34,026 bases of DNA, taken from Bacillota bacterium. GTDB taxonomy: Bacteria; Bacillota; Clostridia; Christensenellales; DTU072. Below the pieces are notes generated by a model that searched no databases, was not told the origin of the DNA, and saw only the letters and a program-made list of their open reading frames with translations. Numbering within the stretch: the stretch's first letter is position 1; each line of letters starts with the position of its first letter. The stretch is taken from positions 1 through 34,026 of the forward strand of contig WQYD01000014.1 of NCBI GenBank assembly GCA_009781445.1, read 5' to 3'. Made by a program: the position numbers and the translations under genes. Positions 19 to 23,321 of the stretch are shown in pieces.

Positions 19-148
19 GGTGGTTGGTGGCTGGTAGCTCTGTCGCCTGTGCCGTGGGTTGCACCCACGGTTATGCAAATCCTGCCCGCATCGGGGCAGT
101 TACGGATTTATCCATAATTCTGCATTCTGAATTCTGAATTCTTAATTA
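19..148. repeat. Composite intergenic repeat (copy A): weak heptamers, hairpins ccgtgggt/acccacgg and ctgccc/gggcag, then heptamer array tgcattc-tgaattc-tgaattc-ttaatta
   Basis: Aligns by eye with the reverse complement of about 8716-8836 over ~100 nt. Confidence 0.75.
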
Positions 149-270
149 TTCTGTTGCTATGGCAACGGAATCACCGCCACTTGCCCCAAACGGGGCAAAT
201 ATCACTGCCTGTAGCAAACAGGCAATATCATTCTGAAAGAATCTCACTTTTCCGAAGGAAAAATTTCATT
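148..270. repeat. Array of unrelated short palindromes separated by octamer ATHTCAYT
   Basis: Palindromes 148-171, 181-198, 206-224, 231-241, 248-262 (then 271-309); separators ATATCACT 199-206, ATATCATT 225-232, ATCTCACT 241-248, ATTTCATT 263-270. Confidence 0.75.
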
Positions 271-309
271 GCAAAAGGGCTAAATTTCTCAGAAATTTAG
301 CCCTTTTGC
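271..309 (-). terminator. Perfect 19-bp hairpin immediately 3' of tRNA-Leu, probable terminator
   Basis: gcaaaagggctaaatttct-c-agaaatttagcccttttgc is a perfect inverted repeat starting one base after the tRNA CCA end. Confidence 0.7.
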
Positions 310-396
310 TGGTGCCGTTGATCGGGGTCGAACCGATATGAAGTTGCCTTCGAGGGATTTTAAGTCCCTTGCGTCTGCCTGTTCCGCCACAACGGC
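310..396 (-). tRNA. tRNA-Leu (anticodon TAA), 3' CCA encoded
   Basis: Minus strand reads GCCGTTG...GGGACTTAAAATCCC...GGTTCGACCCC...CAACGGCACCA; 7-bp acceptor stem pairs, anticodon loop CTTAAAA gives TAA, long variable arm typical of Leu, T-loop GTTCGA. Confidence 0.95.
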
Positions 397-4662: not shown

Positions 4663-4825
4663 GGAATCTAATTATCATTATATATCAGCGCACAGCGCAC
4701 AGCGCACAATGAAGGATTCTAAATATCATTATTAACTAATCCGCAATTCGTGCTTTGTACTTCGTACTTCGTACTTAAATTAATTATTCCACCATTGTGC
4801 GCTGTGCATTGTGCGCTGTGCGCTG
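4663..4825. repeat. Modular heptamer/core element 1
   Basis: Core 4663-4681; (cagcgca)x3+caatgaa 4686-4713; core GGATTCTAAATATCATTATTAACTAATCCGCAATTC 4714-4749; gtgcttt/gtacttc x2/gtactta 4750-4777; inverted heptamers attgtgc/gctgtgc 4794-4825. Confidence 0.9.
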
Positions 4826-7075: not shown

Positions 7076-7083
7076 ATCATTGA

Positions 7084-7170
7084 GGGCATAGGGCATAGGG
7101 TTTAGGGCATAGGGGTGGAATTAGTTTTTTCAGCGCACAGCGCACAATGGTGGAATCTAAATCTCATTAT
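7084..7170. repeat. Heptamer/core element
   Basis: gggcata-gggcata-gggttta-gggcata 7084-7111; cagcgca x2 + caatggt 7131-7151; core GGAATCTAAATCTCATTAT 7152-7170. Confidence 0.9.
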
Positions 7171-7184
7171 GGAATTTTGAACAT

Positions 7185-8715: not shown

Positions 8716-8836
8716 AATTCAGAATTAAGAATTCAGAATTAAGAATTGTGGATTAATCCGTAACTGCCCCGAAGTGGGCAGGATATGCATAACCGTGGGT
8801 GCAACCCACGGCACAAGCGACAAGGGCGAAACAGCC
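8716..8836. repeat. Composite intergenic repeat (copy B), inverted relative to copy A
   Basis: aattcag/aattaag heptamers 8716-8750; hairpins ctgcccc..tgggcag 8764-8781 and ccgtgggt-gca-acccacgg 8793-8811. Confidence 0.8.
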
Positions 8837-8848
8837 ACCCCAAACAAA

Positions 8849-8887
8849 ACCCCGCCCCTACCTGCCTTTGGCAGGAAGGGGCGGGGT
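8849..8887. terminator. Strong nested GC-rich hairpin, possible bidirectional terminator in the convergent gap
   Basis: accccgcccct (8849-8859) / aggggcggggt (8877-8887), inner stem ctgcc-ttt-ggcag, lies between convergent genes ending at 8699 (+) and 9090 (-). Confidence 0.5.
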
Positions 8888-8984
8888 ATATTTATATACG
8901 CTCACTCTCTCATGCCCCGCGCTACGCTAACGCTTGCACAGGGTTATGCACATTGCGCCCCTCTGGGGCTTTAGCGGACTAATT

Positions 8985-9089
8985 AATAATGAGATTTAGA
9001 TTCCATAATTCGTACTTCGTACCTTGTACTTCGTACTTCTCAATAATGATATTTAGATTCCGCCATTCTGAATTCTGAATTCTGAATTC
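8985..9089. repeat. Double heptamer/core element
   Basis: Core (minus) 8985-9004; gtacttc-type heptamers 9005-9039; core (minus) 9042-9061; tgaattc heptamers 9062-9089 ending at the stop codon of the 3853-aa gene. Confidence 0.9.
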
Positions 9090-12000
9090 TTAATTAATTC
9101 TCAAATCCCCCACACCCAATCCATTAGCATTTGTATGAATTAAATATGTGTATCCAAACGGCGTAACGAAGTTTGTGTCGTTTTCTATTTCTTCTGTGTG
9201 TATTGAATTGTTTTGCCCGAAAATCCAACCTGAGGGGACGCTTGTGGTGGGGAATTTTCCGCTTACGCTAAGCGGTGTGCCGTTAAACGAAACGAATACT
9301 TCTGAATAAGCAGGCGCAACGCTAAAGCCTGCAATATCACCGAATACCGCTAACCTTGAGATTGAAACGCTTATGGTTTGTTCGCTACCGTTAAATAGAT
9401 TTACATTTGTGGCTAAAGGTTGCAAGCGGAACTCTGTACCGTTATACACGAAAGCAAAGTAAAGGGTTCGTAAGTCATGATCATAAATAAGTGAGAGGCT
9501 TCGTGCAGTTGGGCTTTCGACATTCTTTTCGGTTGAGGCAATAACGAACCTAAGGTTTGAACCGCTATTTTCTTCCGCGGTAAAGGTTAAAGACGCTTGG
9601 GTTACGGCGCGCAGTGCCATTTCACCGAATGAGTTTGCCACTGCAAATTTTTGGTTTTGTGGAACAATGAATCCCGCTTCGCTTACGCGCTGAACATAAT
9701 TTCCGCCAAGTGTGAAATCGTAATTAAATCTGTGGTGTTCGGTGTTAAACAACGCGCGCGACAAGTTCAAAATCATATTGGACGCCGAAATTCCTGCTGT
9801 GCGCCCTATTTTATTAAGGCAAAGATCAAAGAAATCACTTGCGGTAAAGGCTTCGGCATAACCCGTGGGGACGACATAGCCCGTAAATTCAAAGCGTGAA
9901 TCAAATATATAAGAATATAAAAGCACGCCGTTTTCATAAAGCTCAAACACCACTCTTGCGCCCGAATTTTCCCTGCTAAAGGCGTCATAATATAAATCAG
10001 CCGTGTAAATTGCACCGCTGTTCCAATCAATAGAGGGCAAATCAAAGTAAGCGGTTTTTCTATTTACGCTTAAATATATTGTGGCTTCGTAATTATCTAT
10101 TGCCTCATTGTAAACCAAAGCAAGCACCGAATTATAGTAGCTTTCAAGCCCCACAGGGATTTGCCAAATTTTACCGATATAAGCGTTGTTCGTGAGTTGC
10201 GCTTCGTTTGTGCCGAACTTGGCATAGAACACTGATTCGGAATCCGAATCAGGCGCGGTATTATTAACAGAGAAGGAAAGGGAAACACTGCTGTAAGTGC
10301 CTGAACTGCTTGGCGTAATCCCAATATTTCTTATCTGGTTAGGCGCGGGGATTTCCACAGGGTTGTGTTCGGTAATTACTTCCCCTGCAAGAATGGTGGC
10401 TGATTTATAAGAGTGGGTTACGATAAGCGTAAGCACATAGTGCGAAATCAAGTTGCCGTTAAGATAAACCCTTAATTCCGCAGTGTGAACACCAAGAGAG
10501 GGATTAACCATAGTGTCTGCAAAGGGATTGGCGTAAGTTAATAAAGCAATCGGATTATTATTAAATAGGTAAGACAGCGTATAGCCCTCTGCTTTGGGGG
10601 TTTTAATGTTAAAGAGATTTTCAAGCGGAAGATACACACTATCAAAGCCTTCGGCAACATAAACGAACGATTGAGAACCGTGAGGTAGCACAAGCGTGCC
10701 ATAGTCGTCCTTATATCCTTGGCGCATTGTGTTAAAGTGGCGAACCCACACTCTAAGCCCCGAAATATCAAAAGCAGTTTCAGAATTATCGGTGGCGGTG
10801 TACGCGTCAAACGGAACGGATACAAGCAGGCTTTCGTCATTGATCACAATTAAGATTGTGTTAGTGAATTTGTTATAATAAATCTTTATTGTGTGCGTGA
10901 AGCCGTTAAATAGGTTAATACCGCTTAAGTTAATGGGAATAAATGTGGGAACACTATCCTTAATTGCCACGATATTCGCGCCTATTCCGCCGATAACAAG
11001 CATAAGCGAATCCGCATTCATGCTTCCGTTAATTAAAAGCGTGAATGAGAAATTGTGAACGGAATTAGGAATGAATTTGAACGCGGAATCAATAACATCG
11101 TAATTTCCTGTGCCTGCGGTTACCGAAACGAACTGCGCATAGGTATCCTCAGGGACATTTATTTCTTTTCCGTACACAAGGCTTTCCGAACCGCTACCAA
11201 GAACAAAGTCATGCGTGAAATGCTGTGAACTTTGAGAGAACACACGCAATATGAAATCATACTGATCCGAAAGGTTTGTAAGGGTTCGCCTCAGGTTAAA
11301 CAAATCGCCCACGGTTTGCAGGGCAAAACCAGCTGTGTAAAAGTCGTTTAGTTCAATAAAGGTGCCATTTTCCCATTCTGAACCGATAGGCATTTTATCA
11401 AAGCGCGGAATATTCAGTATGTTTAGCGCAAACTGATCTTGAAACCAAAGCACAACGCTTTCGTTGCTGTCGTTTGCCATATTGCTCGGCAAACCGCCGT
11501 CCATTCGTATTTCGCTTGCGGTGATTGAACGCCTGTAAATAAGCCCGCTTTCGGTTAAGAACTCAACCACGATTTTGCCAAAATCAACCGAACCGCCCTC
11601 ACCTCTTAATAAGATAAACTCTTGCTCTGCGTGTGCCATTTCGGTGATTTGTGAGTACACATTTGCTTTTACGGGTTTGGTTTCTTTAACTGTGTAATTA
11701 GTGTGCGCGCAGTTATTTGTTCCGCATGGGATTTCCCTCTTGCAGGCAAGTGAGAAACCGCCAAGCGAAAGGTTAACCTTGCCAAGCGCGGTGGGCGAAT
11801 CTATAGTGTGGGTGGGGGTAAATTCGCGCCCAAGAATATGGTGCGCACCGCCCTGCCCTGATTCGGTTCTAAAAATATTAAAATACTGTTCACCGTACGG
11901 AAGCAGAGTGGAAGCACCTGAATCGCGAAGCCAAGTAAATATAAAATCACGGTGCCAATAGTAACCGCTGTGAACCTCGTAAAAATCAATAGGTACTATA

Positions 12001-15000
12001 TCTGTTTCGCCTGTTTCGGGGTCTTCAACCTCTTCATATCTGATTTCGTTGCTAACCATGTACGGCGTTATAGCCCATGTACTTGTGTTTGAGGAAGTTA
12101 GCCTTATATTTAACTCTTTATCAAGTTCAACCGATAGTTCAGCACGCGTAACCGTGAAAGGCGTACTTATAACATTAAATTCATAGTTTTCATGAGTTGC
12201 GAAATCATTTTCGCCAAATGTAAACCTGCCTGCGCCCAAATCAAACTCTAAACCTGTGTCAAACACATTCTTTTTAAAATTGATAAGGGGGTTAAGGCTG
12301 TTTAGCTTGCTGTTATCAGCGTTATCATTATTCCTGTAACCGTTTGTGCCTATGAAAAGCGCAAATTCGGTGCTTTTTACAGGCATGATTCCGTTAGTTT
12401 CCGCGAACATTCCGTACGCAAACTCAATATGCTTAATTCCGCCTGCCGTTCTGATTTCAATATCAAGCCTTGCGCGCACAATTTCAAAATCGTATTCGCC
12501 CTCAAACACAAAGATATAATCCGTGATTCCGTAATCGGAAGCAATGGGGGTATTAAAGCCCACAGAGTGTATTCCGCTGTTAACGCCTGTTCTTACATTG
12601 CCACCGCCACCTTCGTCTTCGCTATTCCAAAACGCCACAAATTCATTTATAGGCACGCTGTTAAGAAGTGCCAAAAACCCTAAGTTTTCAGCGTCATTAT
12701 ATCTAAAGCCCTTATATGTAATGCTGAAGTTAAGATCGCCATACTCACGGGACAAAAGGTTGCTAAAGCCTGCGTCTATCTCAAGCACGGCAGGTTTAAC
12801 CACAAGCGTGCCTTCAAGAACCATAATCTCATAATTATTTGCTAAGAAACCTGTGGCGGTAAGCGTGTACTGCCCTGCACGCGGTTGTGCAGACACGGTA
12901 TCCATATTAAGAATGATATTCTCGCCCTGCCACAAAATATATCTTGCGCCTGCGCCCATTATAACGCTTTGCCAAATATCGCCTGCAAGAATACCGCCCT
13001 CAACCGTTCCGCCGTTCACGACATAACTTGGCAAATAAGTCCAACGGTTCATAAGCAACATATATTCAAGATCTGTGCCGTACGAAATAAGCGGATTATC
13101 TTCACCCAAACCGCTTCCGATATTTTGAGTAAGCTGAATGTATGCTACCTTTCTTGTGATATGAAGCCTGCCGGGGCTTGTGATAAAGATATCCAAATTA
13201 TGCTTATCTTTATTGGCAAAAGAGGACATATCAATTCCGTAGCCACCTTGAATAACGCGCAATTTGCCTGCGTCTGTTTTGTCATTCAGCGTGTACGCCG
13301 AGGGGGATAGCACAGGTTTGCCCACTATCTCACTGTCAAAAGCGTTTGTTACCACGCCGTTAACCATAACGCGGTAAGTAAAGCCAAGATCTTGAAACCT
13401 GTCTTCGTCTTCGCCGTCTTTCCAATCCACAGTGCCGTATTCCATGTAAAGATTATCCACATAAATATCTACTCTTAATGCGGTAATCGTTACCACATTG
13501 TTGCTTTGAAGATTATAAATGCGGTTAGGATCTCTTGAACCGCGCAACACCACATTATATGTTCCTGCGTCTTTAAGGGAAGAATCAGCACCGCCGTCCC
13601 TTGGGGTTACGATAAACGCAATATAATTAAGTTCTTTAAGAATAAGGGCATTAAGTGAGGACATAAGCCCGTTAAGTACAGTAATCAACGCGGTAGCTTG
13701 GGCTAAAGAGGTACTGCCTTCGCTAAAATCGGTGGCGGTGTTTAGCACATGAAGAAGTTCGGTAAGCCTGCCGAAAAGTGTGTTCGTTCCTGCCCCTGCT
13801 ATCAGGCTGATAATTTCATTATAATTTGAATTATCTGTGCCGTTATCATTCTTCTTTAAATGTTCTATTCCGCCCTCTGAAATTATCTTATCATAAAGCC
13901 TTGTTAATTCTGACTGCGCGGTATTTGCGCGATCTATCACAAGCGAAAGGGGTGAAGGCACAATCACGCGGTTAAACGCGCCCCTTGAATCGTTAAGAAG
14001 CCCCATGAGTTCCGTGAGGAAAGAATCCATTATATCAAATTCGGATTCTAAGCGGTAATTCCTTATTCTTGGGGGTGTGCCTGCCGTTTGGGGCAATGCA
14101 AGGGTGGAAAGTTCAAACAGCCAAGGCATACCGCTATAGGGGCGGACATGCTGTTCTATACGCACATTAACAGTGGCTTTTGTGATTTCAAATTGATAGA
14201 AATCAGCAAGCAACCTAACGGTGTGGTTTAAATTTTGCGTGGAAACGCTGATTGCGTACCGCCCTGCATCGCCGAGGACTTGCCCGTCTGTGGGGGTGAA
14301 CACAAAATCAATCATATCAGAGGTGAATCCGCTATCTGAACCGATTTGCAGGTTTCTTATTGCGGGGGGTTGCCCGTTATACGGTTGAATTAAAGAACCC
14401 GCGGGAATATCAATCAGAACAAGGCGCGGAAGGATTTTAACATAATATTCCTTATCAAGCTGAATGAGGTAATTTGTGTTAAAGTGTTGGAAGGTGTACA
14501 CAAGGTAGCTATCAATTTCGCCGTTGAGGTATTTAACATCTGAGGGTTGCCAATCGTCCCTGCCTTCGGTAAGCCTTACCGCCACATTGAAGCTAATATC
14601 CCAAGGTGTGCCGTTAGTTTCGTACACCCCGAAGTCCCCTGCGTTTCTTTCCATGCGGATATTTTGAGAACTGTACACCGTGGTGAAAACTGCTGTGTTT
14701 CCATTATCCGATTCAAGGGTTAAAAGCAAACTTTCGTAAAGCCTTACTTCAAGAACTTTTTGAAGAATTTCAAAGCTAACTTCCACCGTTCTTAAATCCA
14801 CGAAAACACCTTGGGAAATTTCGTAATCTTCAAGAGTATAGTTATTTGCACCGCCACCTGTGATAGATAGAATTCTCACGCTGTAACCGCCTGCGTTAAG
14901 CACCGTGGAAGCACCCACAAGCTGAAGCACCACACTCACAGAATCGCTACCGATTTCCTGCCCGAATTCGTTATAAACCAAGCGAACCACGGCGGGGTTT

Positions 15001-18000
15001 ATTCTTGCGGAATAACCAAACGCATTGCCACTGTACTCTTCGCCGTCAGGCAGTTCAAAGATAATATCGTTAAATGAAATAGGCGCGCCAAGAATTTCAA
15101 AGCTATGCGCCATGCCGTCTGCGGAACTAACATTGTAATTGCGATCCAAATTCGTGATAACCACAGGATAATTTCCCCGCCCTCTTAATGGGTTATCAAG
15201 CGAAACTCTAACCACGCTGTCCCTGTTGAAACCTTGGGGCGCAAACGGAACTTCGCTTAAAGGATTATCCACAAGCATAAAGCCTTTAACTTCGGCGACT
15301 TTACCGTCATAAACCTTTTCAAGATCACTTGGGGCAAATTTCACATAAAGCTGTTTCACAATTATTTGGAATATACCCCTGTCACCGTCATTTAAAACAG
15401 AGAAGCTGTAATTGGTGTTTTTACTTATAATATCGTCTATATCAATATAATAATCACCCATTTCTTCGCCTGCGGTGCGCTTTAGAATCCCGATAAGTTC
15501 GGTTAGGTGTCCGTTAAATACGGCAGTGAAACCGCCGATAGGATCATTGTCCCCGAATTCTTTGAAAGCATTATGGATAAGCACGCTTACTTCTTTTTGC
15601 AAAATTGTGAGGTTTGCGCTTGCGTAGTGGATTATGTAATTATTATAAGCATTCCAAACGCCTTCCGCATTTACCTCTGTGAACTCAGCGGAAATTTGGT
15701 AAACACCTGCGTCTGAAAGCGTTTCGGCTAAGCAGGTAAAGTTTAATCTGCCAAGCGCGCCCACGGTTAAGCCAACCATGTTTTCAAACGGATAAGCGAA
15801 TGCATACGAACCACCGCCGTTAGGCGCGCCGTCTATAAACCTGTTATATGTAACGCTGAATGAGGGGTTTTCTTCACCGAAAATCTTGCTTGCGCCTGAC
15901 ACGGTAACATAGAGATTTCTTGGCACGACTTCAACCGTGAAGCCCTTATCAAGAATCACATTGTAGTTTATATCCATTAAGCCAAGAGTTCCGCGCAAAA
16001 TGTCATAAAGCCCCACATTATGAACCCACATATTCGCCCCCGGCACAAGAACCATGCCTTCGGTTTCGGTTCCGTCATCTAAAATCCGCCCGAATGTCAG
16101 GCTTCCGTTAGGGTTCAAAAATTCGTCTGCAAACAGCCCTGTGTTGGGGATATTATTGCCCTGCCCGTCCTTAACTGCTGAGGCTTGCCACGGTATTGAA
16201 ACGCCCTGCACAGGCCCGTACTCAATCACGATATTTTCAGGGGTAACGAAAACATCTCTTGTAAAGATTTCCATTAAACAGCCGTCTTCGTAAATTATAT
16301 TGTAATTATTGCTGATTGCCGAAGACAGCCTTAATTCATAAATGCCTGCATTGGTTGTGTTAGATAAATTGTGGTTTACCAAATTCCTCAAGGCAACCAA
16401 ATTAAAGAGGCTAACTGAATATTCCGAACCGCTAATCATGAAGTAAAGCGCGTAACCGCCCGAAGTTTGTTCTGCAAACTGAACGGAATTAAAACTTTCG
16501 TTGAACGCAAAGGGCTTCGCGTTTTCGTCCTTTGTGCCTGAGGGCGAAGAACCCACCGCATAAAGATAAAGTTTTGGCATATCTTGCCCGTAAATTTTAG
16601 AACTGTCCTCAAGCCCGATATATATATTGCGCGGTTTGATTTCAAGGCGTTTTGAATTTATGCTTGTGGTTTTAAACGAATTGTGAACCAAATCAATGCC
16701 ACCTGTGGGCGCACCAAAGCCGTCTATTCCGCCTATCAGCGAATTGTACGAAACAATTATGTAATATAGCCCTGCTTCGGTGGGAATTTGCAAGAATTGC
16801 CCGTGCATTGAGGGGGTGCTTTCGTAAAGGTTATAAAGCGCATGGGGGACATATTCCACAGTGAACCGCCAATCCGCAAATGCGTTAGCTGTGCTTTGAT
16901 CGTACGAAGTGAAACCGCTAACCCCGATTTTGGGCATTCTATCCTGCATATCCTGCCCGATTTCGCCGTAAATAAATTCATACACAGGTGAGGAATCTTC
17001 ATAATCGGGTGAAGCGTTTCTTCTATCACGCATGATAATATCGTAATGCGTTTCGTACCGCCTGCCTTCATTCCAATAAATGAATATCCTTTGGGAAACA
17101 GGGGGTGCGCCTGTGTCCAGTTCGCTATTATTAAACCTTTCAATATTTATATAAAAATCGCTGTTAGAATTTGAGTTTGTGCCTATGGACGCATTGAAGA
17201 AGTCGGCAACGCGGATTGTTCCGTTATTATAATAAAGGGTTATTGAACCAAGTTCGCCGTTATCGTCCCTTATTGAGAAAGCCTCATGTTCCACATACAT
17301 ATATTTGGGCATATTGCGGATAGCGATATTTATAAGCTGTTTTTCGGCAATATTCAGCACAACCGTATCCCAAGCTACCAAACCGTCTAATTCGTAGCGG
17401 ATATCAAGGCGGATATTATTGCCTGTTATTCCGCTGTCCTTATCGTAGCCGAAAGGATTATTGGCTGAACGCTGAATATGTTCGCGCATTAAAGGCACAT
17501 TATATTCATCGCCGTTATTGAACACGATTCTTAGCCTTGCCGTTAAAAGATTAAGATCCATGCCCTCAATAACATTAAATACCGCCTGTGTGGAATGCAC
17601 GGAATGAAGCTGGCGGGGCGTAACATTAACTTCAATAGGAAGCCAGCAATCACCGCTTAAATCTTGATAATAGAGTTGCGGATTCTGTGTGCCTGTGTTT
17701 GCCTTATTGTATCCCACCACTCTGAGGCTTGTGCCGTCCCCTGCAAGTTCGCCGAGAGGAACGGTTGTCCGCGTGGTATTGTCGCTATAAGTTATGATTA
17801 CATCAAGCGTCCAAAGATTTAAGCCGTTTGCTGTGGGATAGGCAATAAGCTGTCCTAAAACGGTGCTAAAAAGCACAAAATCAATGTTTTGAATGAGTTC
17901 TATGCGCGGTGTTCCGCTTGCCCATTCCAATCTGATAGGCACAAGAGAGGCTATTTCCACGGTAAACGAACCGGTGAAAAACAAGCTATCCCCTGCGGAA

Positions 18001-20651
18001 TAACGCACGGTGATAAGGTTTTCTTTGGTTACGGTGCGTGAATCAAATCCTGTGATTTCAATATTAGGATTATCATGAAAAAGTGCGCCTGTGCGCGTAC
18101 CGCTTGCGTTAAGCAAAAACACTTCAAGCCCTGCCCAATTAGGGGAATCGTTAAGCACATATTTAGTTTTATGGGGCGCGTACACCTCAATGCCGATTAC
18201 AGGGTTAGCAATAACCGTGATTTGCGCTTCGTAATAATTATTGGGGTAAGTGTTATGATCCAAGGTTGCGCCTGCGTATCTCACTCTTATTGCATAGTTG
18301 ATATTGGGCGAAGTGTGCTGAGAGGGGTTATACCCTTCCACAATTATATTGGGATCAGATAGCGGAACGGTAAGCGAAGTGCGGTTTTCAAAGCGCAAAG
18401 TTAGCCCGCTTGCAAGAAGTTCCGTGCCAAGCCCGCCTGCCAAATCAAGCACCGAACCCGAATAAATTCTGCCAAGGCTTCCATTGGGAAGTTCAATATG
18501 CGTGATAAAATTGCGGACGGTAACGCTAAATTCAAGGTAGCCCACATTGATATCTTGAAGCCCTGTGTGCGCGATTTTCACCGTGCGTTGTTCGGAATAG
18601 ATTCCGCTTGCAAAAGGCTTCGTAAAGAACCAAGTTGAAAAGTCATTCGTCCACGCTTCGCCGTTTGTGCTAAAAATCCAAGATTGAGAATCTAACGAAT
18701 AAAACTCTTCCGCTTCTTGCCCGTTGTCCCCGCCGAAGAAAACTCTAATCTCAATTCCGCTTGGATTAAAGAGATAATTATGCAAATTATCGGGATCGCT
18801 TGGGTTATATAAGAGGAAATTTTTGCTTATAGGTTCATTGATAAATTCCATTCCAAGCACGCGCTTTACAACCCTTGCAGGAACAGAAGCATTATGAGAA
18901 TAAATTTGGTATTCGGCTATGTTTATAACGATAGGAATATCGGTAAGCACTAAATTGGAATTATCAAAACTTCCCACCATAGCAGGTGTAAGCGGGAAAA
19001 GCACTTCTTTGCCGTTATTTAAAAACGCTTTAATGAAGAAGCCGTTTGTGTTAATGCTTTCGTAGCGGAAAATCCTTATCGGTTCGCTTGCACTGCCGTT
19101 TGCGTCCGAAAGCAAAATTGAAGTTACTGCCACAGGAAGAACATCCAGTTCGTATTCAATGGTTAAATCATTGCGGATTCCGTCATGATATCTTATAAAG
19201 AAGCGCGCCTTGCCCACAAAATCAAGCACGAATTCAGTTTTGCCCTCATGTTCCGCGCCGAACATTCCTTGGGTAAGGGGCAAAATTCCGCTGTTAGTGC
19301 CGTTGCTGTACGATACCCTGAAAGCCCAGCCTTCTGTGGCATGGAAAGGTGTAAACGGTGTGTTAACATAAATGGGCTTATCTTGAAGCGGATTGCCGTT
19401 TGAATCCACGCTTCTTGTGCGGAAAATTTCAAGGCTTTCCACATTTTTATCCGTTAAAAATAATTCTAATTTAAAAGTTGTGCTTAAGCGTTTTGTTCCC
19501 GAATAAACGCCGATTTCCACTTCTTGGAAGCCCACCTTATCGGGATTAAAACCTTTTACAAAAATATCGTAATTGCCGATTGGGATTTCGCCGTTAACAC
19601 CGTCTACACAAACGCGTACGGTGCTACCCTGCCCGAATGTGTAAATTGCGCCCTGCCTGCCGTTAGAATAAACAGGTTGAAATCTTAGCCACGAAATATC
19701 AAGCGGTGTGCCTACGGATTGTGAGGGCGGTGGTTGCGGTGCTTGAATCAATATGTACTGCGCCACATCTTCTTCCACAACCCTAATGCTGAAAGTATCG
19801 TGAAATCCGCCGTAACTCACAATAACAGGGGTGGAAGCATTATTAGGCGGAATCACATTCATATTTGCCGAAAACGAAAGCCCAAGCGCACCACCGTTCA
19901 TAAAGATAACTTCGGGGATTCCGTTATTATAGTTTAAGGTTATTTCTCCCCCTGCCAAATCAAGTTCTTCGCCTTGATAATAAATTTCTTTGGCGGGAAG
20001 TTTGCTTACAATAATGCTTGTGAGAACCTTTTCGGCAACGGTGATTATAAAAGGTTCGCCGTTCGCTTTTTCGTCTACCGTGTGCGTAATGCCGTCATAC
20101 ACAAATGTGGCGGTTATCCTCTGCAAACCGTGCTTGGTTCTATCGTACCCCGAAACCATTTCGGCGGTTAAAGGGATTTTTAAATCGTAATGCCCTTCTG
20201 GGATTTCGCTAAAGTCGCCGTCCTCATTGCCAAAAAGGACATACACAAAAAGCCCGTCCTCTAAAAACAACTGCCCTTGAATATAGTTATCCTTAAAGCC
20301 CTCACCGCCAAGCCACGCTTTGCCCACCTTATTGGGCGCAACATTCACGAAAACAAAGCAGTTCTTGCCCTCATAAGAAATTGTGATAACTTGCGCTGTT
20401 TCCGTGTACCAAGGATCAAAGGAAGAATGCATATAAGGCGTAACATCCTTTAAATGCGTGGAACCGTCTGATCGTTTAACGCGGATTTGCGCACCGTTTA
20501 AATCAAATTCTTCGCCTTGAAGATATCTTAATTTGGGGGAAGTGTAAATTTCAATACCCGTTACGGTAACTTCTTGAGCGCAAGAAACAAGCGCGATAAC
20601 CGCAAAAAGTGCAATTAAAATTAAAATTAATATAAGCGCGCGTTTCTTCAC
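9090..20651 (-). CDS. Giant (3853 aa) surface lipoprotein with bacterial Ig-like and MBG-type repeats and C-terminal LamG/lectin-like modules
   Basis: Lipoprotein signal MKKRALILILILIALFAVIALVSC|AQ; repeated VTGIEIYTSP..YLQGEEFDLNG Ig-like modules; repeated KxFGExxP MBG-like motifs; GTG start preceded by in-frame TAG. Confidence 0.88.
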   Translation of the reverse strand: MKKRALILILILIALFAVIALVSCAQEVTVTGIEIYTSPKLRYLQGEEFDLNGAQIRVKRSDGSTHLKDVTPYMHSSFDPWYTETAQVITISYEGKNCFVFVNVAPNKVGKAWLGGEGFKDNYIQGQLFLEDGLFVYVLFGNEDGDFSEIPEGHYDLKIPLTAEMVSGYDRTKHGLQRITATFVYDGITHTVDEKANGEPFIITVAEKVLTSIIVSKLPAKEIYYQGEELDLAGGEITLNYNNGIPEVIFMNGGALGLSFSANMNVIPPNNASTPVIVSYGGFHDTFSIRVVEEDVAQYILIQAPQPPPSQSVGTPLDISWLRFQPVYSNGRQGAIYTFGQGSTVRVCVDGVNGEIPIGNYDIFVKGFNPDKVGFQEVEIGVYSGTKRLSTTFKLELFLTDKNVESLEIFRTRSVDSNGNPLQDKPIYVNTPFTPFHATEGWAFRVSYSNGTNSGILPLTQGMFGAEHEGKTEFVLDFVGKARFFIRYHDGIRNDLTIEYELDVLPVAVTSILLSDANGSASEPIRIFRYESINTNGFFIKAFLNNGKEVLFPLTPAMVGSFDNSNLVLTDIPIVINIAEYQIYSHNASVPARVVKRVLGMEFINEPISKNFLLYNPSDPDNLHNYLFNPSGIEIRVFFGGDNGQEAEEFYSLDSQSWIFSTNGEAWTNDFSTWFFTKPFASGIYSEQRTVKIAHTGLQDINVGYLEFSVTVRNFITHIELPNGSLGRIYSGSVLDLAGGLGTELLASGLTLRFENRTSLTVPLSDPNIIVEGYNPSQHTSPNINYAIRVRYAGATLDHNTYPNNYYEAQITVIANPVIGIEVYAPHKTKYVLNDSPNWAGLEVFLLNASGTRTGALFHDNPNIEITGFDSRTVTKENLITVRYSAGDSLFFTGSFTVEIASLVPIRLEWASGTPRIELIQNIDFVLFSTVLGQLIAYPTANGLNLWTLDVIITYSDNTTRTTVPLGELAGDGTSLRVVGYNKANTGTQNPQLYYQDLSGDCWLPIEVNVTPRQLHSVHSTQAVFNVIEGMDLNLLTARLRIVFNNGDEYNVPLMREHIQRSANNPFGYDKDSGITGNNIRLDIRYELDGLVAWDTVVLNIAEKQLINIAIRNMPKYMYVEHEAFSIRDDNGELGSITLYYNNGTIRVADFFNASIGTNSNSNSDFYINIERFNNSELDTGAPPVSQRIFIYWNEGRRYETHYDIIMRDRRNASPDYEDSSPVYEFIYGEIGQDMQDRMPKIGVSGFTSYDQSTANAFADWRFTVEYVPHALYNLYESTPSMHGQFLQIPTEAGLYYIIVSYNSLIGGIDGFGAPTGGIDLVHNSFKTTSINSKRLEIKPRNIYIGLEDSSKIYGQDMPKLYLYAVGSSPSGTKDENAKPFAFNESFNSVQFAEQTSGGYALYFMISGSEYSVSLFNLVALRNLVNHNLSNTTNAGIYELRLSSAISNNYNIIYEDGCLMEIFTRDVFVTPENIVIEYGPVQGVSIPWQASAVKDGQGNNIPNTGLFADEFLNPNGSLTFGRILDDGTETEGMVLVPGANMWVHNVGLYDILRGTLGLMDINYNVILDKGFTVEVVPRNLYVTVSGASKIFGEENPSFSVTYNRFIDGAPNGGGSYAFAYPFENMVGLTVGALGRLNFTCLAETLSDAGVYQISAEFTEVNAEGVWNAYNNYIIHYASANLTILQKEVSVLIHNAFKEFGDNDPIGGFTAVFNGHLTELIGILKRTAGEEMGDYYIDIDDIISKNTNYSFSVLNDGDRGIFQIIVKQLYVKFAPSDLEKVYDGKVAEVKGFMLVDNPLSEVPFAPQGFNRDSVVRVSLDNPLRGRGNYPVVITNLDRNYNVSSADGMAHSFEILGAPISFNDIIFELPDGEEYSGNAFGYSARINPAVVRLVYNEFGQEIGSDSVSVVLQLVGASTVLNAGGYSVRILSITGGGANNYTLEDYEISQGVFVDLRTVEVSFEILQKVLEVRLYESLLLTLESDNGNTAVFTTVYSSQNIRMERNAGDFGVYETNGTPWDISFNVAVRLTEGRDDWQPSDVKYLNGEIDSYLVYTFQHFNTNYLIQLDKEYYVKILPRLVLIDIPAGSLIQPYNGQPPAIRNLQIGSDSGFTSDMIDFVFTPTDGQVLGDAGRYAISVSTQNLNHTVRLLADFYQFEITKATVNVRIEQHVRPYSGMPWLFELSTLALPQTAGTPPRIRNYRLESEFDIMDSFLTELMGLLNDSRGAFNRVIVPSPLSLVIDRANTAQSELTRLYDKIISEGGIEHLKKNDNGTDNSNYNEIISLIAGAGTNTLFGRLTELLHVLNTATDFSEGSTSLAQATALITVLNGLMSSLNALILKELNYIAFIVTPRDGGADSSLKDAGTYNVVLRGSRDPNRIYNLQSNNVVTITALRVDIYVDNLYMEYGTVDWKDGEDEDRFQDLGFTYRVMVNGVVTNAFDSEIVGKPVLSPSAYTLNDKTDAGKLRVIQGGYGIDMSSFANKDKHNLDIFITSPGRLHITRKVAYIQLTQNIGSGLGEDNPLISYGTDLEYMLLMNRWTYLPSYVVNGGTVEGGILAGDIWQSVIMGAGARYILWQGENIILNMDTVSAQPRAGQYTLTATGFLANNYEIMVLEGTLVVKPAVLEIDAGFSNLLSREYGDLNFSITYKGFRYNDAENLGFLALLNSVPINEFVAFWNSEDEGGGGNVRTGVNSGIHSVGFNTPIASDYGITDYIFVFEGEYDFEIVRARLDIEIRTAGGIKHIEFAYGMFAETNGIMPVKSTEFALFIGTNGYRNNDNADNSKLNSLNPLINFKKNVFDTGLEFDLGAGRFTFGENDFATHENYEFNVISTPFTVTRAELSVELDKELNIRLTSSNTSTWAITPYMVSNEIRYEEVEDPETGETDIVPIDFYEVHSGYYWHRDFIFTWLRDSGASTLLPYGEQYFNIFRTESGQGGAHHILGREFTPTHTIDSPTALGKVNLSLGGFSLACKREIPCGTNNCAHTNYTVKETKPVKANVYSQITEMAHAEQEFILLRGEGGSVDFGKIVVEFLTESGLIYRRSITASEIRMDGGLPSNMANDSNESVVLWFQDQFALNILNIPRFDKMPIGSEWENGTFIELNDFYTAGFALQTVGDLFNLRRTLTNLSDQYDFILRVFSQSSQHFTHDFVLGSGSESLVYGKEINVPEDTYAQFVSVTAGTGNYDVIDSAFKFIPNSVHNFSFTLLINGSMNADSLMLVIGGIGANIVAIKDSVPTFIPINLSGINLFNGFTHTIKIYYNKFTNTILIVINDESLLVSVPFDAYTATDNSETAFDISGLRVWVRHFNTMRQGYKDDYGTLVLPHGSQSFVYVAEGFDSVYLPLENLFNIKTPKAEGYTLSYLFNNNPIALLTYANPFADTMVNPSLGVHTAELRVYLNGNLISHYVLTLIVTHSYKSATILAGEVITEHNPVEIPAPNQIRNIGITPSSSGTYSSVSLSFSVNNTAPDSDSESVFYAKFGTNEAQLTNNAYIGKIWQIPVGLESYYNSVLALVYNEAIDNYEATIYLSVNRKTAYFDLPSIDWNSGAIYTADLYYDAFSRENSGARVVFELYENGVLLYSYIFDSRFEFTGYVVPTGYAEAFTASDFFDLCLNKIGRTAGISASNMILNLSRALFNTEHHRFNYDFTLGGNYVQRVSEAGFIVPQNQKFAVANSFGEMALRAVTQASLTFTAEENSGSNLRFVIASTEKNVESPTARSLSLIYDHDLRTLYFAFVYNGTEFRLQPLATNVNLFNGSEQTISVSISRLAVFGDIAGFSVAPAYSEVFVSFNGTPLSVSGKFPTTSVPSGWIFGQNNSIHTEEIENDTNFVTPFGYTYLIHTNANGLGVGDLRIN

Positions 20652-20707: not shown

Positions 20708-20859
20708 CAGCGCACAGCGCACAACGCACAACGCGCAATGATTGATTCTAAATATCATTATTAGTTAAATAATCCATAATTCGTACTTTGTACTTCGTAC
20801 TTCGTACCTAAACTAAATAATTCCTTCACTGTGCGCTGTGCGCTGTGCATTGTGCGCTG
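20708..20859. repeat. Modular heptamer/core element 2, near copy of element 1
   Basis: cagcgca-type x4 + caatgat 20708-20742; core GATTCTAAATATCATTATTAGTTAAATAATCCATAATTC from 20744; gtacttt/gtacttc 20783-20810; inverted gctgtgc-type heptamers 20828-20859. Confidence 0.9.
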
Positions 20860-22381: not shown

Positions 22382-22471
22382 CAATTCAGAATTCAGAATT
22401 CAGAATTATGGATTTACTAATAATGAGATTTAGAATCCTTCCCTGAATCCTGCAACCTGCAACCTGCAACC
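22382..22471. repeat. Heptamer/core element 3
   Basis: gaattca heptamers 22382-22409; core (minus) GGATTCTAAATCTCATTATTAGTAAATCCATAATTC 22403-22438; tgcaacc x3 heptamers 22444-22471. Confidence 0.9.
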
Positions 22472-22485
22472 TTTAGTGCAAAGCA

Positions 22486-23141: not shown

Positions 23142-23321
23142 CAGCGCACAGCGCACAATGGCGGTTTTATAATTCAGAATTCAGAATTATGAATGCAGAA
23201 TTATGGATTTATTTATAATGAGATTTAGATTCCAACCCTGCATCCTGCATCCTGCAACCTGCCCCCTCAATAATGATATTTAGTTTCCTTCATGTTTCTC
23301 GTTTCTCGTTTCTCGTTTTAT
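23142..23321. repeat. Heptamer/core element 4, overlaps the 3' end of the GH20 CDS
   Basis: cagcgca x2 23142-23162; aattcag/aattatg 23171-23205; core (minus) 23206-23233; ctgcatc/ctgcaac 23238-23265; core (minus) 23269-23288; gtttctc x3 23294-23314. Confidence 0.9.

Follow-up and report, generated by a model that had tools for sequence, protein, structure and literature searches.

A hairpin array behind a tRNA-Leu terminator, probably the gene-less arm of an S23-encoding mobile element family

The row of inverted repeats that lies against a tRNA-Leu gene near the start of the window (the whole stretch of 34,026 nucleotides that was analysed) is best explained as the gene-less, non-coding arm of a family of mobile elements that encode an S23 protein and resemble the intervening sequences (IVS) of rRNA genes, situated here at the tRNA-Leu terminator; we place the probability of this reading at roughly 0.7. 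An odd hairpin repeat and an unexplained protein family, the small four-helix-bundle protein S23 (PF05635/TIGR02436), probably belong together, in an element that is probably both widespread and mobile. To our knowledge S23 has so far been a family without a function, known mainly from rRNA intervening sequences, and we know of no catalytic site in it. A search of the open-licence literature found no paper that connects S23 genes with hairpin or heptamer arrays between genes.

The array occupies positions 149-309 (plus-strand numbering), where the six inverted repeats, the last five of them linked by four octamers, were re-located as the initial annotation had described them. The host gene is a tRNA-Leu (TAA) at 310..396 on the minus strand, identified by ARAGORN and the Rfam tRNA model, and Rfam found nothing in the window beyond tRNA. 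The array had been said to end at the tRNA-Leu terminator; the hairpin is indeed there, but the orientation needs correcting, as the order on the minus strand is tRNA-Leu, then terminator, then array, following the 3' end of the gene. That hairpin, P5 (271..309, minus strand), has a 19-bp stem at the end of the tRNA transcript and is equivalent to HP0, the hairpin that opens full-size elements; hairpins of its type take an equal position on contigs C60, C57, C8, C15 and C87 of the same genome and at loci L058, L081 and L150. Outward from it lie linker 4 (ATTTCATT, 263..270, plus strand), which reads AATGAAAT on the tRNA strand and is the first linker, L1; P4 (248..262, TTTTCC GAA GGAAAA, 6 bp), a recurrent hairpin word with six genome copies joined to linker 4; the octamer of linker 3 (ATCTCACT, 241..248, plus strand); P3 (231..241, TTCT GAA AGAA, 4 bp); the octamer of linker 2 (ATATCATT, 225..232, plus strand); P2 (206..224, TGCCTGT AGCAA ACAGGCA, 7 bp), the stem of which differs among copies; the octamer of linker 1 (ATATCACT, 199..206, plus strand); and P1 (181..198, TTGCCCC AAAC GGGGCAA, 7 bp). 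The window linkers overlap adjacent stems by one base. The outer edge of the array, CCGCCACT (174..181, plus strand), is itself recurrent, being identical in C60 and C8 and present as variants in C57, C19 and C15. The sequence of parts from the tRNA is tRNA, hairpin, AATGAAATT, hairpin, AGTGAGATT, hairpin, AATGATATT, hairpin, AGTGATATT, hairpin, AGTGGCGG. The sixth inverted repeat, P0 (149..170, TTCTGTTGC TATG GCAACGGAA, about 9 bp including a G.T pair), sits between the array and a heptamer tract, outside the block that the window (174-313) has in common with C60 and C57. The pattern survives a shuffled-sequence control: the window has 24 occurrences of ATHTCAYT where 9.6 would be expected (the highest of 100 shuffles reached 18), and octamer-hairpin-octamer units, counted with a stem of at least 4 bp, number two against none in 300 dinucleotide shuffles.

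The array is not peculiar to this locus. Pattern searches, on which all genome-wide counts for the window's own genome rest, returned 16 matches to ATATCAYT-N6-36-ATATCAYT and none to the reversed control, and these derive from about ten arrays, at least nine of them additional to that of the window. Their parts follow an identical order: first CCGCCACT, next a hairpin rich in GC and one or two hairpins that vary, in many cases ACGAAGTA, and then TTTCCGNAGGAAA, AATTTCATT or a variant of it, and a long palindrome. Six of the ten adjoin tRNA genes (Leu(TAA), Gln, Ile, Lys, Glu/Val and Leu(GAG)/Thr), and the tRNA-Gln and tRNA-Ile copies are 89% identical to that of the window over 174-313. Paired changes distinguish the stems of copies, P1 being TTGCCCC/GGGGCAA in the window, TTGCCTC/GAGGCAA in C60 and GCGCC/GGCGC in C8. 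The first description, of a constant short linker punctuating variable palindromes, stands, but the stems cannot be called unrelated, since across the genome a shared set of hairpin words is reused in one order, in near-identical copies; this is a dispersed repeat family.

A full-size form was found on at least 118 contigs of public genomes when three consecutive linkers were made the scanning criterion, nearly all of them, among the matches listed, being metagenome-assembled genomes (MAGs) of gut Clostridia. In most it is two-sided, with left hairpins joined by AGTGATATT, a centre, and right hairpins joined by AATATCACT, in a constant relative order; the minus-strand array of the window resembles the left half, and the window copy has this one side only. 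The core begins directly after the hairpin that closes the upstream gene, and in most loci lies on the strand of that gene; the hairpin is a terminator with a T-tract where the gene is a tRNA and a stem of about 13 bp where it encodes a protein. Complementarity between the variable base of the first left linker (AGTTNTATT) and that of the centre (GGCGAATANAATA) was seen in 47 of 50 elements, a count inflated by the relatedness of copies, against a mean of 18.9 and a maximum of 32 in 20,000 permutations. Likewise, a change from C-G to T-A at the start of hairpin 1 is matched both in the 3' arm of the hairpin and in the centre (L113, L132, L141, L099). Such long-range matched changes in sequence support the view that the arms pair as single strands, whether RNA or DNA. 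Loops on the AATATCAYT strand are, by eye, mostly of the C-GNA-G type, and pairing between the inter-array linkers L4 and R1 shows, again by eye, occasional matched changes only. As a separate observation, the first hairpin of the right half in L065, L069, L082, L125 and others has tandem G.A mismatches in place of Watson-Crick pairs (for example GTGAGGC..GCCGAAC and GCGACC..GGGAGC).

The association with S23 is seen both at individual loci and across genomes. An S23 gene lies directly downstream of the array at six loci from related genomes, MAGs or phage records (L210 in G027, L212 in G043, L223 in G019, L136, L140 and L192), that of L223 being frameshifted, and the small open reading frames (ORFs) that follow arrays, where scanned, match the Pfam family 23S_rRNA_IVP. 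Among 248 genomes of the order, 15 had two or more array matches, and PF05635 was present in 13 of these, compared with 62 of all 248 (Fisher p=3.6e-7); it was also present in 4/4 genomes with a single palindromic match and in 0/4 with a single match that was not palindromic. Two genomes, G067 and G236, carry many AATATCACT arrays and no PF05635 match, which may reflect either assembly gaps or another helper. Among PDB structures the S23 protein matches 2rld (E=1.8e-33), and a profile comparison adds 2gsc; both entries have five chains. No PADLOC defence model was matched by the protein.

At the S23 loci inspected the gene commonly lies within arrays of a short unit that changes from one locus to another, among them GTGATGC/GCATCAC, AACTTCACT, ACATCACT/AGTGATGT, GCTTCAT, CAATTCATG, GGATTTC, AATATAACT and tandem heptamers such as GCAGAAT. 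The gene stands between the two halves in L255, L213, L214, L215 and L251 and after both halves in others. Inverted 7-mers common to both flanks have a median of 12.5 at S23 genes and 7 at control ORFs (p=6e-11), and the period-7 excess is 18% in S23 flanks against 0.13% in controls. A plasmid search made with a hand-composed S23-like consensus, its matches checked individually, gave ten S23 genes from Bacteroidota, Spirochaetota, Bacillota, Cyanobacteriota and Chloroflexota, all ten with heptamers upstream and their reverse complement downstream. Four of the plasmid genes (L270, L275, L276, L277), each with heptamer arms, were noted inside restriction or defence modules (HsdS/HsdR, helicase/N6-methylase, DrmD/PglX, DUF1156/Swt1), and the inverted array of GTGATGTA-type units that flanks the S23 gene of L213 (G012:C8) is exceptionally long, one 7-mer occurring 18 times.

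The window is tied to S23 by its heptamers as well. No S23 gene was found on the window contig; the window copy has arms of linker/hairpin or heptamer units and no gene beside them, and an S23 gene of the AATATCAYT type was not found in its own 93%-complete assembly. Period 7 accounts for 23 of the 42 tandem repeats found in the window by TRF, and window tracts match the arms of two S23 genes of the same genome (G000), with 109 12-mer matches for that on C28 and 144 for that on C7, where controls averaged 1.7 and reached 12 at most; the genome has four S23 genes, and the arms of the other two do not recur in the window. The tract next to P0 (AATTCTG x4.6, 116..147; TRF and 12-mer matches) has the same sequence as the C28 arm. 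Eight copies of a core with ATATCATT or ATCTCATT are flanked by heptamer tracts in the window: CAGCGCA, which matches the C7 arms, with TTCGTAC and TGTGCGC around core GGATTCTAAATATCATTATTAACTAATCC (4686..4825); AGGGCAT and CAGCGCA with a core containing ATCTCATT (7083..7171); AATTAAG, TTCGTAC and ATTCTGA with two cores (8716..9095, octamers at 8988-8995 and 9045-9052); CGCACAA, TTCGTAC and CTGTGCG, an inverted pair, around a core with ATATCATT (20711..20859); AATTCAG and CCTGCAA around a core with ATCTCATT (22383..22472); CAGCGCA, AATTCAG and CCTGCAT with core octamers at 23217-23224 and 23272-23279 (23142..23283); and AAATGTG and AATTCTG around a core with ATATCATT (30928..31024). The upstream flank of the C28 S23 gene has the same core, its arm containing the octamer ATATCATT and AAATATCATTATT, and this ties the octamer that first drew notice to S23 within the same genome.

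Other features of the window were recorded in passing. Positions 47-120 hold another dispersed repeat, CCTGTGCCGTGGGTTGCACCCACGGTTATGCAAATCC...GGATTTATCC, which has dozens of genomic copies, is likewise rich in hairpins and is linked to heptamer tracts. The ORFs of 3853 and 1968 aa at 9090-20651 and 24892-30798, repetitive and with a signal-like N-terminus, probably encode surface proteins, and an 882-aa ORF (31241-33889) that resembles a type IIG-style restriction-methylase adjoins S23-type repeats.

Several comparisons suggest that dispersal is due to mobility. Pairs of elements in unrelated contexts have common blocks with sharp ends; L087 and L167, for example, are 98% identical over about 347 bp, with related end sequences GTGATACTCTTATCGGAG and CTCCGATAAGGACATCAC, terminal sequences that do not occur in every subtype. 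The expectation that palindromes would be gained and lost between relatives is borne out in genus g4, where presence of the element is patchy: G019 has one behind a gene whose 71% identical orthologue in G061 has none, and G061 carries an element like that of G019 at another site, at a contig end, 94% identical over the part retrieved. At the window locus itself no empty site can be read, because none of the nine other genomes in which the MgtC-like neighbour was located has a tRNA-Leu next to it. On Nostoc plasmids the interval between corresponding flanking genes either holds S23 and its arms or lacks them, the boundaries falling at heptamers; no target-site duplication was seen on comparing sites with and without the element, and the plasmids lacking S23 have about 165-180 bp of other sequence between those flanks, so this pattern may reflect a history of loss or replacement. 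As to vehicles, a DNA-level search of plasmids gave no element-like match. One match among phage records, L192 (MT835815.1, human gut), has an array followed by an S23 ORF and is a possible vehicle. Among 19 pattern matches on viral contigs L174 alone looks like a true element, the others resembling chance tandem repeats or coding repeats.

An unlikely but still serious alternative is that the arrays are structures useful to the host and kept by selection, as stabilisers of mRNA 3' ends, terminator adjuncts or buffers of supercoiling, with S23 a host protein that binds them and with dispersal by duplication and gene transfer. The fixed orientation behind terminal hairpins and tRNAs and the compensatory changes maintained over long distance would fit such a role. 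The patchy presence within a genus, the different sites in congeners, the presence or absence of gene and arms as a unit, and the high variability of linker sequence among S23 loci all argue against it.

In the mobile-element reading a complete copy has its S23 gene between inverted halves or directly after both, and its arms consist of hairpins with a constant linker of 7-9 nt, or of plain tandem heptamers, in inverted orientation; a copy such as that of the window would depend on S23 made elsewhere. The S23 pentamer may act as the mobilising factor by binding the folded single-stranded arms (the linker strand, with its C-GNA-G loops) and carrying them to a further hairpin, as a rule that of a transcription terminator; there, repair or replication enzymes of the host would copy the element in. 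Unequal copying inside the arms could then lead to the gain or loss of hairpin and linker units.

Four further explanations carry little weight. PF05635 has been reported to be homologous to Avd, a protein of diversity-generating retroelements (DGRs) (PMC10053308), and structured arms would suit an RNA template; a retroelement in which S23 is Avd-like and a reverse transcriptase acts in trans is nevertheless very improbable, as RVT_1 was found in 4/15 array genomes against 57/248 overall (p=0.75), is absent from 11/15, and is missing from G043, which has six S23 matches and many arrays. Local mutation with no element at all, by replication slippage and quasipalindrome correction, would be expected to produce tandem heptamers and perfect stems, and is rendered extremely improbable by the reuse of hairpin words, in unchanged order, at unlinked loci, near-identical dispersed copies, sharp-ended common blocks in different contexts and the association with S23. 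REP/BIME-type elements moved by a Y1 HUH (RAYT) transposase are suggested by small hairpins that have a conserved foot and lie between genes in a set direction, yet this explanation is barely credible here: Y1_Tnp occurs in 3/15 array genomes against 91/248 (p=0.27, in the wrong direction), and G043 has no Y1 transposase. A CRISPR-like memory array of inverted logic, after the analogy drawn in the initial annotation, for which one could cite the alternation of a constant short unit with variable ones and a single Cas1 gene on another contig (C24), is to be dismissed, because the stems are a vocabulary that recurs across loci and genomes, held paired by compensatory changes, and no record of acquired sequences, and because the arrays have units of 7-20 nt, are dispersed singly and have no cas gene near.

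More tentatively, and at somewhat less than even odds, S23 genes across bacterial phyla may form the core of a mobile-element class of its own, one that spreads without a classical transposase or dedicated reverse transcriptase, is recognised through 7-9 nt units in inverted arrays, either plain or with hairpins between the units, and lies behind many unexplained heptamer and palindrome repeats of bacterial genomes. Were inverted heptamer or hairpin arms general to S23 genes, the biology of S23, the origin of rRNA intervening sequences and several classes of repeat would become a single question, and there would be a mobile element without a recognisable recombinase.

The nearest parallel is with the S23p-encoding IVS of 23S rRNA genes in Leptospira and Coxiella, which has long been suspected of being selfish. 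The Coxiella IVS has an S23p ORF, terminal inverted repeats of 28 bp and, just ahead of the ORF, a heptamer (GACAGAT) repeated two or three times in tandem; a past as a mobile element has been suggested for it (PMC4990558). Like the IVS, the elements described here are small and have an S23 ORF and, where two-sided, complementary ends; unlike it, they lie outside rRNA at the 3' ends of tRNA and protein genes (the window copy being intergenic by tRNA-Leu), have arms that are arrays of linkers and hairpins, mostly lack the ORF and occur many times in a genome. With REP/BIME and their RAYTs they share dispersed intergenic palindromic mosaics and non-autonomous copies, but they go with S23 and show no association with Y1 across the 248 genomes, and their constant part is the linker while the stems vary. 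The short tandemly repeated repetitive (STRR) heptamers of cyanobacteria are intergenic 7-nt tandem tracts like those found here, and such tracts stand on either side of the Nostoc S23 genes; STRRs have been known as repeats, and the open-licence papers searched gave no connection with S23 genes. With DGR Avd the likeness is a reportedly homologous fold, without, as judged by co-occurrence, any requirement here for reverse transcriptase. MITEs resemble the present elements in having short gene-less copies in different contexts, with ends that may be inverted repeats (as in L087 and L167), and differ in that neither target-site duplication nor transposase was found here. Finally, a CRISPR array has identical repeats of about 21-40 nt and unique spacers, whereas these arrays have 8-nt linkers, stems that recur and no adjacent cas genes.
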